Positions 10,966 through 38,040 of a DNA stretch of 38,040 bases are shown piece by piece. The stretch spans positions 1 through 38,040 of the forward strand of contig DUOG01000025.1 in the NCBI GenBank assembly GCA_012838945.1. Reading direction: 5' to 3'. The notes under the pieces were generated by a model. That model did no database searches. It saw nothing but the letters and a program-made list of their open reading frames with translations, and was not told where the DNA came from. A program made the position numbers and the translations under genes. Position 1 is the stretch's first letter. Each line of letters opens with the position of its first letter. The stretch is from Acholeplasmataceae bacterium (GTDB lineage Bacteria > Bacillota_I > Bacilli_A > ML615J-28 > CAG-313).

Positions 10966-11085
10966 TTCACCTCCTGAAAGTAAATATTCCTTTTACCGTA
11001 ACGATAAAAGGAAATACAATTCCAATCTATCCTCGGTAGGAAATTAAGCCTCTTAGGCACCTACTGTCTACGGCAGTTGACTTCT
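10966..11085 (-). promoter_or_regulatory. Ribosomal protein L10 leader RNA
   Basis: About 120 bases of leader RNA before rplJ contain the Firmicutes-type L10 leader signature GCCGUAGACAGUAGGUGCC, then GGCUUAAUUUCCUACCGAGG. The stem GUAGG/CCUAC (11060-11064 with 11036-11040) encloses an inner GCC/GGC hairpin. A second hairpin with 9-base arms (10987-10995 with 11005-11013) lies just before the ribosome binding site. In Bacillus this class of leader binds the L10-L12 complex to reduce rplJL expression. Confidence 0.85.
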
Positions 11086-11087
11086 AT

Positions 11088-11116
11088 ATTATAATCATTT
11101 ATTTGTGTTTTTATAT
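11088..11116 (-). promoter_or_regulatory. Possible rplJL promoter
   Basis: A perfect -10 TATAAT (11088-11093) lies immediately upstream of the L10 leader, but the -35 position (11111-11116, ATATAA) is poor. No convincing terminator separates it from rplA, so rplJL may also be read from the rplK promoter. Confidence 0.4.
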
Positions 11117-32615: not shown

Positions 32616-33320
32616 CTAACCTAATTCTTTTAAAATATGTAATAACTCATAGTAGTTTTGAATATTGATATCAGCTACTTCTTTTTCATCTGGTTCATTC
32701 AAAGCATTATACCAAACGGTAAATAACCCACATTCTTTAGCTCCAGTGATATCAGCTTCATAGTCATTTCCGATCATCCACACATCAGATCTCGGTATGT
32801 TTAGTTTCTTTAAACCCATTTCAAAGAGCCATGGACTTGGCTTTCTAAATAAATAATTACTACTGACAATCACAAAGTCAAGATATTTTAGTAATCCATG
32901 TTGTCTAAGTTTTGCTTTAATTGCCGCATTAGAAAAAGTTGAATTACTAAGGGCCATTACGATAATCCCATTATTAATAAAATAAGATAACATTTCTTTG
33001 GCACCAGGGATTACTTTAGTTTTATCAATCGCCTTTGCCATTTCAATCTCAAGTTTTGAAACAGTAGTATCAATTTCCAAATTTAAAAAATTTATTAAAT
33101 AGCTAAGATATTTACGAAAGTCAACTTCTATACTATCTGAAGTTCTCATATCAAGCGTGGTCTCTTTTAGTTTTGTCGCATAAAACAATAATTCATCATA
33201 GGTAAGAGTACGCTTTTTTAAATGCCGATAGAGAACTTTTATTCCTTCATTAAAGTCAATACTAACATTGCGGATAATAGTATTACCGAGATCAATTAAG
33301 ACCCCTCGTGGTTTCGTCAT
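32616..33320 (-). CDS. HAD-superfamily hydrolase
   Basis: A 234-residue HAD hydrolase, probably a phosphatase. Motif I is [11 protein letters not shown] (nucleophile D10; the second Asp is replaced by Gly, as in the DLGN-type HADs that include E. coli YihX). Motif II is ALSNST, motif III is the Lys in FRKPSPWLF and motif IV is [15 protein letters not shown] helical C1-type cap lies at about 20-100. It starts at ATG 33320 behind GGGGGTAAG, 10 bases after ffh, and ends about 16 bases before glpK. Co-transcription with glpK suggests a small phosphorylated metabolite as substrate, but nothing in the sequence identifies it. Confidence 0.85.
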
Positions 33321-34753: not shown

Positions 34754-35077
34754 TTAGTATTCATTTTCTAATTGCTCTATTATTTTTTGGCCTTTTGGAT
34801 CAGTGTGTTTCTTTAATTCATTTAATAACTTCATCACTTCTTGATCACGCTCATATAATTTCAGTTTTTCTTCATAATTATATAAAAGAGTAGTCGCCTT
34901 TTTTAACGCATCAAAAACCGCATTTCGAGAAACGTCTTCCGCTGTCGCAATCTCAGCCAAACTCAAATCATCAAAATAATATAATTCAAAATATTGTTGT
35001 TGTTTTTCTGTTAAAAGAGGTCCATATAAATCATAGTAGATGATTAATTGTTGATTCTTTTCTAACAAATCAGCCAT
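34754..35077 (-). CDS. ylxM: YlxM/p13-family putative helix-turn-helix protein
   Basis: A 107-residue protein resembling sigma region 4: LTEKQQQYFELYYFDDLSLA and EIATAEDVSRNAVFDALKKA form the helix-turn-helix. The UPF0122/YlxM family is always found next to ffh; in Streptococcus a YlxM protein has been reported to act with the SRP pathway. Its ATG shares one base with the ftsY stop (TAATG), so translation is coupled. The name rests on sequence plus position between ftsY and ffh. Confidence 0.93.
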   Translation of the reverse strand: MADLLEKNQQLIIYYDLYGPLLTEKQQQYFELYYFDDLSLAEIATAEDVSRNAVFDALKKATTLLYNYEEKLKLYERDQEVMKLLNELKKHTDPKGQKIIEQLENEY

Positions 35078-36045
35078 TAATCTTCACCTTCAATAAGATC
35101 CATAAATAGTCCATAAATATAGTTTTCTAAATCAAAATATTCTAAGTCATCAATCTTTTCCCCAAGACCAACAAATTTAATTGGAATCTTGAATTGATCA
35201 CGAATTGCAAGGACAATTCCACCTTTTGCGGTACCATCGAGTTTAGTTAATACTACTCCGGTAACATTAGTTGCTTCCATAAAGGCTTGAGCTTGTAATA
35301 AACCGTTTTGACCAGTAGTAGCATCAATAACTAATAATACTTCTTGTGGAGCATCTTCTATTTCGCGATTAATGACACGATATATTTTTTCAAGTTCTTT
35401 CATTAAATTAACTTTAGTTTGAAATCTACCTGCGGTGTCACAAAGAACAACATCATACTTTTCATTGGTAGCTTTTTGTACTGCATCATAAACAACGCTG
35501 GCCGGATCATGAGCATCATAGTTTTTGACAATGTCAACGCCAACTCTCTTAGCCCATACATCAAGTTGATCAATGGCACCAGCTCGGAAGGTATCCCCCG
35601 CCGCAAGCAATACTCTCATTCCTTGATTTTTCAAACGATGAGCGATTTTAGCAATCGTAGTGGTTTTTCCAACCCCATTAACCCCGACAAAGAGAATAAC
35701 ATTAACCTTACCTTTTTCTATATTTAGGTTGGCATTAACAATTTCTCCTTGTAAATATAATTCAAACATTTTGTCAACGATTATTGGCTGTAATTCTAAA
35801 GCAGAATGGAGTCCTTTAACCCTTGGGTCTTTTTTAAGTTCATCAATAAATCTAAGGGTAGTCTCTACCCCGATATCAGCCATAATAAAAACATCAGTTA
35901 AATCATCAAAGAGATCTTCAGTAATTTGGTCATATCCACTGAGTAGGTCCTTAAGCCTTGACATGATCCCGGTTCGAGTTTTTTTCATTCCAATATTATA
36001 TTTTTCATTGCGTTTCTTATTTTTAAATCTTTTAAAAAGTCCCAT
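35077..36045 (-). CDS. ftsY: Signal recognition particle receptor FtsY
   Basis: FtsY is the membrane-associated SRP receptor GTPase. The 322-residue protein starts at ATG 36045 (MGLFKRFKNKKRNEKYNIGM), with AAAGGTGA spaced 5 bases upstream; an in-frame ATG at 36063 would destroy that spacing. The basic amphipathic N-terminus replaces the long acidic A-domain of E. coli and should bind the membrane. The NG domain shows FVGVNGVGKTTTIAKIA, AAGDTFRAGAIDQLDVWAKR, DTAGRFQTKVNLM, TKLDGTAKGGI and FVGLGEKIDDLEYF. First gene of ftsY-ylxM-ffh-HAD-glpK. Confidence 0.97.
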   Translation of the reverse strand: MGLFKRFKNKKRNEKYNIGMKKTRTGIMSRLKDLLSGYDQITEDLFDDLTDVFIMADIGVETTLRFIDELKKDPRVKGLHSALELQPIIVDKMFELYLQGEIVNANLNIEKGKVNVILFVGVNGVGKTTTIAKIAHRLKNQGMRVLLAAGDTFRAGAIDQLDVWAKRVGVDIVKNYDAHDPASVVYDAVQKATNEKYDVVLCDTAGRFQTKVNLMKELEKIYRVINREIEDAPQEVLLVIDATTGQNGLLQAQAFMEATNVTGVVLTKLDGTAKGGIVLAIRDQFKIPIKFVGLGEKIDDLEYFDLENYIYGLFMDLIEGED

Positions 36046-36068
36046 TATTATCACCTTTTCCATTTACT

Positions 36069-36145: not shown

Positions 36146-36174
36146 AAAAAGAAAAAGACCGCTGTTCTGCGGTC
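36146..36174 (-). terminator. Terminator of the small RNA gene
   Basis: On the minus strand GACCGC and GCGGTC (36169-36174 with 36157-36162) form a stable G/C-rich stem around AGAACA. TTTTTCTTTTT follows, a textbook intrinsic terminator. There is no open reading frame directly before it. Confidence 0.93.
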
Positions 36175-36285
36175 AAGTATAAAAAGGGAAGTCCTGTGGG
36201 GGGGCCACAGGACAAGGAAGGGGATGGTGAATAATAAAAATTATTCACAACTTTATGTAGGGGATAAGTGTAACTTTTCAGTTAC
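36147..36285 (-). ncRNA. Candidate structured C-rich small RNA, about 140 bases
   Basis: The 238-base gap between topA and ftsY holds a complete RNA gene on the minus strand. A consensus promoter predicts a start near 36285, exactly at the base of hairpin 1 (GUAACU-GAAA-AGUUAC, 36270-36285). Hairpin 2 (GUGAAUAAU-UUUU-AUUAUUCAC, 36227-36248) and hairpin 3 (GUCCUGUGG-CCCCC-CCACAGGAC, 36191-36213) follow, then the terminator stem. The linkers are C-rich and unpaired: CUUAUCCCCUACAU, CAUCCCCUUCCUUG, CUUCCC. There is no ATG, and no start codon with a ribosome binding site. Such exposed UCCC/CCCC runs can pair with Shine-Dalgarno sequences, as in staphylococcal Rsa RNAs; that role here is inference. 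It lacks the SRP RNA, 6S and tmRNA signatures that I know. Confidence 0.78.
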
Positions 36286-36291
36286 GGTAGT

Positions 36292-36320
36292 ATTATAGCA
36301 CACAGTTAAAAAGTTGTCAA
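36292..36320 (-). promoter_or_regulatory. Promoter of the small RNA
   Basis: A perfect consensus on the minus strand: -35 TTGACA (36315-36320), 17-base spacer, -10 TATAAT (36292-36297). It lies about 28 bases after the topA stop and about 230 bases before ftsY. It is one of the two perfect consensus promoters in the window (the other drives rplKA). Confidence 0.92.
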
Positions 36321-36347: not shown

Positions 36348-38040
36348 TTATTTTTCCAACTTACATTTAGGATTACTACAAATAGTAGTGCCATCATCAA
36401 GGGTAACCATAATATTATCGCATTGTGGACACTTCTGTGTAGTTGGGATTCCGGAATATGCAGTCTTACATTTTGGATAGCGACTACATGCATAAAATTT
36501 CTTTCCTTTGTTGCGACCACGGTTAGCAATTCGTTCAACAATTTCACCCTCGCCACAAACTGGACAAGTTACACCAGTAGAAACTGGTTCTTTCTTAGGT
36601 TCTTTTTTGATGTATTTACAATGAGGATAACCGGAACAAGCAGTAAACTCACCAAAAGGACCACGGCGAATAACAAGTTCGCGACCACACTCAGGACAAA
36701 TTTCATCAGTTGGTTTAGGATAAAGTTTAACCATATTATCACGAGCGTGTTCTACTAATGGTTCAAATTGATCATAGAACCTTCTTAGTTCTTCATACCA
36801 AACTAGATTTCCAACACTGATTTCATCCAAGATTTTTTCCATTTTGGCAGTGTACTCAACGTTGATGATTGAACTAAAATATAATTGTAACTGATCACTA
36901 GTTAAGATACCGTGTTCTGTTGGAATGAAGGTACGCTTATCCATCGTGACATAACTACGAAGTCTTAAGGTTTCCATGGTAATTGCATAGGTTGATGGTC
37001 GCCCTATTCCGAGTTCTTCCATCTTACGAATGAGTCTAGCTTCGGTATAACGCATTGGCGGATTGGTGAATTTTTGTTCAGTTTGAAGTTCTTCTAAAGC
37101 AAGAGCATCACCAATATTTAATTCTGGTATTTTTTCAAGTTCTTGTTCTTGGTCAATATTAGTTTCTTCATATATTGCTAGATATCCATCAAAGATAATC
37201 TTCTCACCGTTAAGATTAAAGAGATAATCATTGGCCATAATGTTAACCTTAGTATCTTCGATAATTGCATCACTCATCAATGAAGCAAGAGCACGATTAT
37301 AGATTAACGAATATATCTTATATTCATCAGTGGTTAAGTATTTTTTTACCTTTTCTGGAGTATATTCTAAATTAGTTGGGCGAATAGCTTCGTGAGCATC
37401 TTGCGAATTTTTGCTTTTTTTAGTTTGTTTAACCCCTTTATAATATTTACTTCCATACTTTTCAGTAATAAAATCCTTAGCTTGACTGACAAAATCATTT
37501 GATAAACGAGTTGAGTCGGTACGCATATAAGTAATCAAACCGACACGCTCAGTTCCTAAATCAATACCTTCATAAAGTTTTTGAGCATTCATCATTACTC
37601 GTTTGGCATTGAAATTGTATTTAGCACCAGCATCTTGTTGTAATGTGGAAGTGATAAATGGTGGACGAGATGCTCGCTTTCGATTTTTTTTGGTAATATC
37701 AGTTATTGTATAAGTTGCATTTTCTAAATCTTTTACTACTTTTTCGGTTTCTTCTTGATTGTTTAGTTTAATCTTTTGATCTACTTTTCCATAGAAAGCA
37801 GCTTTAAATGGGAAGTCATCCTTTTTAAGATGGGCAGTAATCTCCCAATATTCTTCTCTAACAAAGGCTTGTATTTCCTTTTCGCGATCAACTACTAATT
37901 TTAATGCCACTGATTGGACACGACCAGCAGATTTAGATCCAAGTCGTTGTTGAAGTAAACTTGACAATCTAAAGCCAATGATGCGGTCGAGAATTCGACG
38001 TGATTCTTGAGCATGAACTAGATCGATGTCAACCGTGCGA
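36348..38040 (-). CDS. topA: DNA topoisomerase I (type IA), N-terminus outside the window
   Basis: TopA relaxes negative supercoils. The open frame continues to the right window edge (RTVDIDLVHAQESRRILDRI at the edge is typical of TopA). The Toprim domain is therefore missing, and about 563 residues remain. The catalytic tyrosine lies in GLITYMRTDSTRLS (Tyr codon near 37529). Also visible are LSAGRVQSVAL-like SAGRVQSVALKLVVDREKEI, the helical gate, RYTEARLIRKMEELGIGRPS and TYAITMETLRLRSYV. Three C-terminal zinc ribbons (CPEC...CKYIKK, CPVC...CKTAYS, CPQC...CKLEK) make the long-tailed form. An apparent start at 37967 is an internal TTG, not the true start. Confidence 0.96.
   Translation of the reverse strand, partial: RTVDIDLVHAQESRRILDRIIGFRLSSLLQQRLGSKSAGRVQSVALKLVVDREKEIQAFVREEYWEITAHLKKDDFPFKAAFYGKVDQKIKLNNQEETEKVVKDLENATYTITDITKKNRKRASRPPFITSTLQQDAGAKYNFNAKRVMMNAQKLYEGIDLGTERVGLITYMRTDSTRLSNDFVSQAKDFITEKYGSKYYKGVKQTKKSKNSQDAHEAIRPTNLEYTPEKVKKYLTTDEYKIYSLIYNRALASLMSDAIIEDTKVNIMANDYLFNLNGEKIIFDGYLAIYEETNIDQEQELEKIPELNIGDALALEELQTEQKFTNPPMRYTEARLIRKMEELGIGRPSTYAITMETLRLRSYVTMDKRTFIPTEHGILTSDQLQLYFSSIINVEYTAKMEKILDEISVGNLVWYEELRRFYDQFEPLVEHARDNMVKLYPKPTDEICPECGRELVIRRGPFGEFTACSGYPHCKYIKKEPKKEPVSTGVTCPVCGEGEIVERIANRGRNKGKKFYACSRYPKCKTAYSGIPTTQKCPQCDNIMVTLDDGTTICSNPKCKLEK

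Follow-up and report, generated by a model that had tools for sequence, protein, structure and literature searches.

The 38,040-nucleotide stretch of Acholeplasmataceae DNA analysed here (hereafter the window) contains, on its minus strand between topA and ftsY, a small RNA (sRNA) gene that, judged from sequence comparison, is an independent gene belonging to an RNA family conserved among Mollicutes-related bacteria. Members of this family were shown to share a predicted promoter of their own, covarying 5' and middle hairpins, a predicted terminator and two near-invariant C-rich segments that fold as single strands. On the best reading, they constitute a new family of C-rich sRNAs that are free-standing and act by base pairing without Hfq, and the RNA probably switches off other genes via their ribosome-binding sites. 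In the searchable papers, no report was found of a conserved trans-acting sRNA in Acholeplasma, Izemoplasma or related bacteria; the present family has a defined layout, is widely distributed and comes with a working covariance model.

Organization of the sRNA gene

The gene, including promoter and terminator, spans 36320-36147 on the minus strand, and in minus-strand reading order the topA stop codon precedes its promoter. The features of this interval are as follows.

36348..38039, minus strand: topA, upstream neighbour, cut by the window end (Pfam Topoisom_bac)
36292..36320, minus strand: sigma-70 promoter TTGACA-17-TATAAT with extended TG (12/12 consensus match)
36270..36285, minus strand: 5' hairpin (stem 1) GUAACU-GAAA-AGUUAC (fold)
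36249..36269, minus strand: C-rich segment 1 (CRR1), ACUUAUCCCCUACAUAAAGUU, unpaired (fold)
36227..36248, minus strand: middle hairpin (stem 2), 9 bp (fold)
36214..36226, minus strand: C-rich segment 2 (CRR2), CAUCCCCUUCCUU, unpaired (fold)
36191..36213, minus strand: stem 3, 9 bp with a CCCCC loop, terminator-like (fold and terminator score)
36175..36190, minus strand: third C-rich/U-rich stretch, UUCCCUUUUUAUACUU (sequence)
36147..36174, minus strand: terminator hairpin GACCGC-GCGGUC with U-rich tail (terminator call)
36087-36079, minus strand: ftsY's own TGGTATAAT, extended -10 (sequence)
35077..36063, minus strand: ftsY, downstream neighbour (Pfam SRP54)

The elements that the first-pass annotation had described are all present. 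The promoter matches the consensus at every position, and the predicted transcription start at 36285 lies 7 nt past the -10 element at the base of the GAAA-capped 5' hairpin, with six bases separating TATAAT from the hairpin. Both further 9-base hairpins, stems 2 and 3, are perfect, the terminator is strong with a 6-bp stem containing 5 GC pairs followed by a U-rich tail, and the exposed C-rich motifs comprise two AUCCCC and one CUUCCC in addition to the CCCCC loop. The minimum-energy structure consists of exactly four hairpins (5', stem 2, stem 3 and terminator) with a free energy of -41.3 kcal/mol as compared to -16.5 +/- 2.8 kcal/mol for dinucleotide shuffles (z = -8.76), and 0 of 200 shuffles folded as well. 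Because stem 3, together with UUCCCUUUUU directly after it, scores as a terminator, the sRNA may have two 3' ends, giving predicted transcripts of about 105 and 139 nt.

Conservation of structure and sequence

Conserved stems and compensatory changes, whose absence from relatives the annotation had named among the observations that would refute it, were found. The 5' hairpin forms in all 63 copies when each is folded singly, while its arms vary widely (GCGCC/GGCGU, GUAACU/AGUUAC, UAGCA/UGCUA and CAAUC/GAUUG). Among 62 divergent copies, identity amounts to 47% in stem 1 and 86% in stem 2, and reaches 93-94% in the unpaired C-rich cores, with the CRR1 core CUUAUCCCYUA 93% and the CRR2 core AUCCCCUUCC 94% identical. 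In this pattern, sequence is maintained in the single strands and only pairing in stem 1. Stem 2 is wholly rewritten in some families, for example as GUGUGUA/UACACAC or GCGAGC/GCUCGC.

In the alignments, 97.7-97.8% of cells are paired as compared to 77% in the shuffled comparison, and changes on both sides were observed in 11 of 13 modelled pairs (5/5 in stem 1 and 6/8 in stem 2). The covariation score of 0.51-0.65 exceeds the 0.14-0.17 of shuffled and the <0.10 of slid controls. These alignments were fitted to the covariance model and hence lean towards it; the single-sequence folds are independent of the model. A promoter matching at least 9 of 12 consensus bases, 5-12 nt from the RNA start, precedes 58 of 63 copies (3% in shuffles), and 87 of 91 copies are followed by terminators. 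These same-layout homologues support the proposal of an unannotated, free-standing C-rich RNA gene.

Distribution among relatives

By DNA similarity, one copy of the sRNA was found in its own genome and further copies in relatives, which have the core in common and retain a promoter and a terminator though the sequences of these differ. A first covariance model, built from 12 sequences, identified the sRNA in 15 of 43 genomes of the order, and a refined model in 67 of 390 genomes of the class at E <= 0.01, where E-values of such purpose-built models are to be taken as rough. A third model revealed more diverged copies directly upstream of ftsY in genomes G002 (156 bases) and G003 (84 bases). 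Scanning named genomes with a pattern yielded 57 loci, under titles covering Mollicutes, Tenericutes, Mycoplasmatota, Candidatus Izemoplasma/Izimaplasma, Acholeplasmatales, metagenome-assembled genomes of Bacilli/Bacillales and two unnamed isolates. Altogether, 91 copies were examined, from six families of the class (those of its own order, Izemoplasma-type, Acholeplasma-type and others), with one copy in most genomes and a range of 1-4.

The presence of the 5' hairpin and both C-rich segments, usually with a promoter and a terminator and often with topA or ftsY as a neighbour, was the ground for accepting weak members of 25-40 bits. One weak match, in G102 (family f20), has neither the second C-rich segment nor a terminator and was discarded as false. 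A stem-3-like hairpin with a C-rich loop occurs at five other loci (L003, L043, L173, L174 and L175), and Izemoplasma copies carry a UUUUCCCUUUUUAUA-like stretch past the first terminator hairpin.

Genomic context

Among relatives, topA is the conserved upstream neighbour, and 39 of 63 copies are followed by ftsY as the next gene. The order topA-sRNA-ftsY on the same strand is found in most Izemoplasma-type genomes and several relatives of the same family. In Acholeplasma-type genomes the sRNA comes after topA, as it does in G005, where the next gene is not ftsY. In family f2 of the same order, the sRNA lies away from the topA-ftsY junction beside unrelated genes, and unrelated neighbours are also found in families f22 and f8 and for the extra Izemoplasma copies. 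Promoter, hairpins and terminator thus relocate together between loci, which argues that the unit is independent of ftsY.

Several loci present further arrangements. In several genomes of family f2 (L100, L091, L083, L072, L073 and L113), the sRNA and an ECF-sigma-like gene (Sigma70_r2/r4, 167-168 aa) are arranged divergently, in some cases with a gene for an SGNH-like hydrolase between them, and the ECF-sigma-like neighbour could bear on regulation of the sRNA. Bacillales bacterium UBA3935 carries two tandem copies about 520 bp apart, each with a promoter (L089, 3847-4430, minus strand), the second with stem 2 rewritten to GUGAGUG/CACUCAC. In G148, a tmRNA gene is found on the opposite strand at a distance of about 340 bp from a copy whose stem is GUGUGUA/UACACAC (L125, 2290-3038), and extra copies with this stem type also occur in Izemoplasma-type genomes (L131 and L132). 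Elsewhere in the window, a Ribosomal protein L10 leader (RF00557) was identified at 10972-11091 on the minus strand (79.2 bits against a cut-off of 44).

Search for targets

Targets were sought mainly in G128, a single contig of 1,496,992 bases with an sRNA copy just past topA at about position 352,870 on the plus strand. Outside the sRNA gene, exact 11-nt complements of CRR2 occur there at five places, three of which lie on ribosome-binding sites, and two of these three precede lipoprotein-like genes. The sequence AAAGGGG is itself Shine-Dalgarno-like, with 26 of its 88 occurrences in this genome preceding start codons, and the number of strong ribosome-binding-site partners in G128 was not above that of CCCC-keeping shuffles. 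Lipoproteins numbered 4 among the top 30 sites of G128 (1.35 +/- 1.06 expected); the prediction of a lipoprotein regulon, fixed in advance, was rejected when neither 400 kb of G053 nor about 210 kb of the window's own genome reproduced the enrichment. Counts of AGGGGAT-N-ATG exceed those of the reversed control in most genomes, an excess which can be explained by Shine-Dalgarno content. 16S rRNA was likewise rejected as pairing partner, with no 8-nt core complement in the 16S rRNA of G128.

Within the part of the own genome covered (about 210 kb), the strongest sites are candidates that precede, as judged by eye, genes for a TrkA-like protein, a V-type ATPase subunit and a HAD hydrolase. The HAD-family hydrolase gene lies in the window itself after ffh (32616-33320, minus strand); CRR1 is complementary to its ribosome-binding site, UUAGGGGGUAAGU immediately ahead of the AUG, and the gene is a possible local target. 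In G128, the strongest CRR1 duplex lies before a CsoR-type metal repressor gene (L270:7832-8089, minus strand), and a heavy-metal P-type ATPase gene is among the top 18 sites (L304:14202-16448, minus strand). For G128 alone, these two sites suggest a possible link to metals. The first candidate targets in this genome are the lipoprotein-like genes L252:6843 and L264:4600, the phosphoglucomutase-like gene L289:4231 and the CsoR-like gene L270:8089.

Proposed mode of action and alternative readings

We consider it probable that the gene encodes an independent sRNA that acts in trans without Hfq, pairing through its C-rich segments to Shine-Dalgarno sequences in the manner of RsaE/RoxS. This mode is inferred from the two near-invariant open CCCC segments, their complementarity to G-rich ribosome-binding sites and the lack of detectable Hfq (0 of 9 genomes, with positive controls). 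By analogy with RoxS, the partners of the C-rich segments would be G-rich Shine-Dalgarno regions in several mRNAs (AAGGGGAU or UAGGGGAUAAGU, for example), and pairing would keep ribosomes from binding and leave the mRNA open to RNases, while the hairpins would protect the sRNA and keep the pairing segments open. The RNA may also have the global role in translation and the high abundance that the first-pass annotation had proposed. More tentatively, and less probably than not, the RNA might be an ancient core sRNA of this Mollicutes-related lineage with its Hfq-less, partly reduced genomes, in which its pairing segments would have stayed almost invariant because it controls one conserved regulon or a universal partner, and with its position between topA and ftsY under selection.

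The annotation had also raised, as less likely, an attenuator leader of ftsY, and this reading is now very improbable. It draws on the position of ftsY, which comes next in the same orientation in 39 of 63 copies and in the more diverged copies, but a complete terminator lies ahead of ftsY, which has its separate TGGTATAAT, and copies located elsewhere (in f2, f22, f8 and the extra Izemoplasma loci, as well as in G005 without ftsY next) have their own promoter and terminator; therefore, the sRNA is not an ftsY leader. Hardly any weight falls on a coding role, be it as the mRNA of a small conserved protein or as an RNA with a dual function. Although the interval is overlapped by ORFs on either strand (57 and 59 codons), the stem 2 loops of close relatives differ in length by numbers not divisible by three and stem arms vary freely provided pairing holds, hence no reading frame is kept, and no conserved small protein was found in the interval.

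A scaffold RNA or one that binds a protein, either titrating or guiding it through the invariant C-rich strands and the GUGAAUA/UAUUCAC stem so that mRNA pairing is unneeded, is an unlikely but more substantial alternative. The near-invariance of 10-12 unpaired nucleotides across several families, and of most of stem 2, goes beyond what short seed pairing to changing targets needs, and G128 revealed no excess of targets over shuffles. However, stem 2 is wholly rewritten in some families, therefore such a protein would have to read only its shape or the C-rich strands, and open C-rich segments are the usual layout of pairing RNAs in Firmicutes. Descent from RsaE/RoxS, which would make the window sRNA a far-diverged true member sharing ancestry as well as mode, also seems improbable. 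The AUCCCCUU core and the C-rich content are common to both, and a sub-threshold RsaE-like RNA of 29.6 bits occurs in another family of the class; on the other side stand the failure of the RsaE model (RF01820) in the class and the different order of hairpins and C-rich regions, both detailed below. The preferred reading thus remains an independent sRNA pairing in trans.

Comparison with known RNA families

The Rfam scan proposed by the annotation returned no significant match: with Rfam 15, neither the window sRNA nor the divergent copies matched any family at gathering thresholds, and the matches obtained by relaxed search were far below the cut-offs, at chance level, and were rejected. For RF01820, the window scored 14.1 bits against a gathering cut-off of 79, and 0 of 390 genomes of the class exceeded the cut-off, while the B. 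subtilis control was found. The sub-threshold RsaE-like RNA lies in G367 (L066, 1501-1583, plus strand), contains UCCCAUUCC with a strong terminator, and is possibly a separate C-rich RNA.

Several other RNAs share part of these features. Listeria LhrC RNAs are multicopy, with several copies per genome and C-rich pairing sites; the present family resembles them in such sites and in occurring in more than one copy, but mostly has a single copy (range 1-4) and gave no Rfam match. C-rich regions have been noted in FsrA and CsfG of B. subtilis (PMC4409812), and these, like the staphylococcal C-rich Rsa RNAs besides RsaE, have them in predicted single strands, but differ from the window sRNA in sequence and layout as far as Rfam can tell, given no match at gathering thresholds. 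The uORFC-13-1 motif is also a structured RNA candidate from comparison of Acholeplasma intergenic regions, but is a cis element confined to positions upstream of aroF (PMC8632094), and the main text of that report, whose screen included Acholeplasma, names no topA or ftsY motif.

RsaE/RoxS of Staphylococcus and Bacillus is the nearest known kind by content. It is induced by nitric oxide through ResDE/SrrAB, and without an intact third C-rich region it neither binds ppnKB nor blocks 30S binding (PMC4409812). Like the window sRNA, it is free-standing and has a strong terminator, the AUCCCCUU core and several CCCC regions that are unpaired and could pair with Shine-Dalgarno sequences; the resemblance to C-rich trans-acting RNAs of Firmicutes noted at the outset is supported by own promoter and terminator and by conserved unpaired CCC(C) segments. 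However, lineage and gene neighbours differ, and in the consensus of RF01820 a single long 5' hairpin is followed by C-rich regions (UCCCAUCCCCUUUGU) and the terminator, whereas the window sRNA has a short hairpin, C-rich segment, hairpin, C-rich segment, hairpin, C-rich stretch and terminator, and it fails membership. Since no earlier description was found in the main texts of openly readable papers and membership in RsaE/RoxS fails, the sRNA is rated as a new RNA family, though one of a kind already known.
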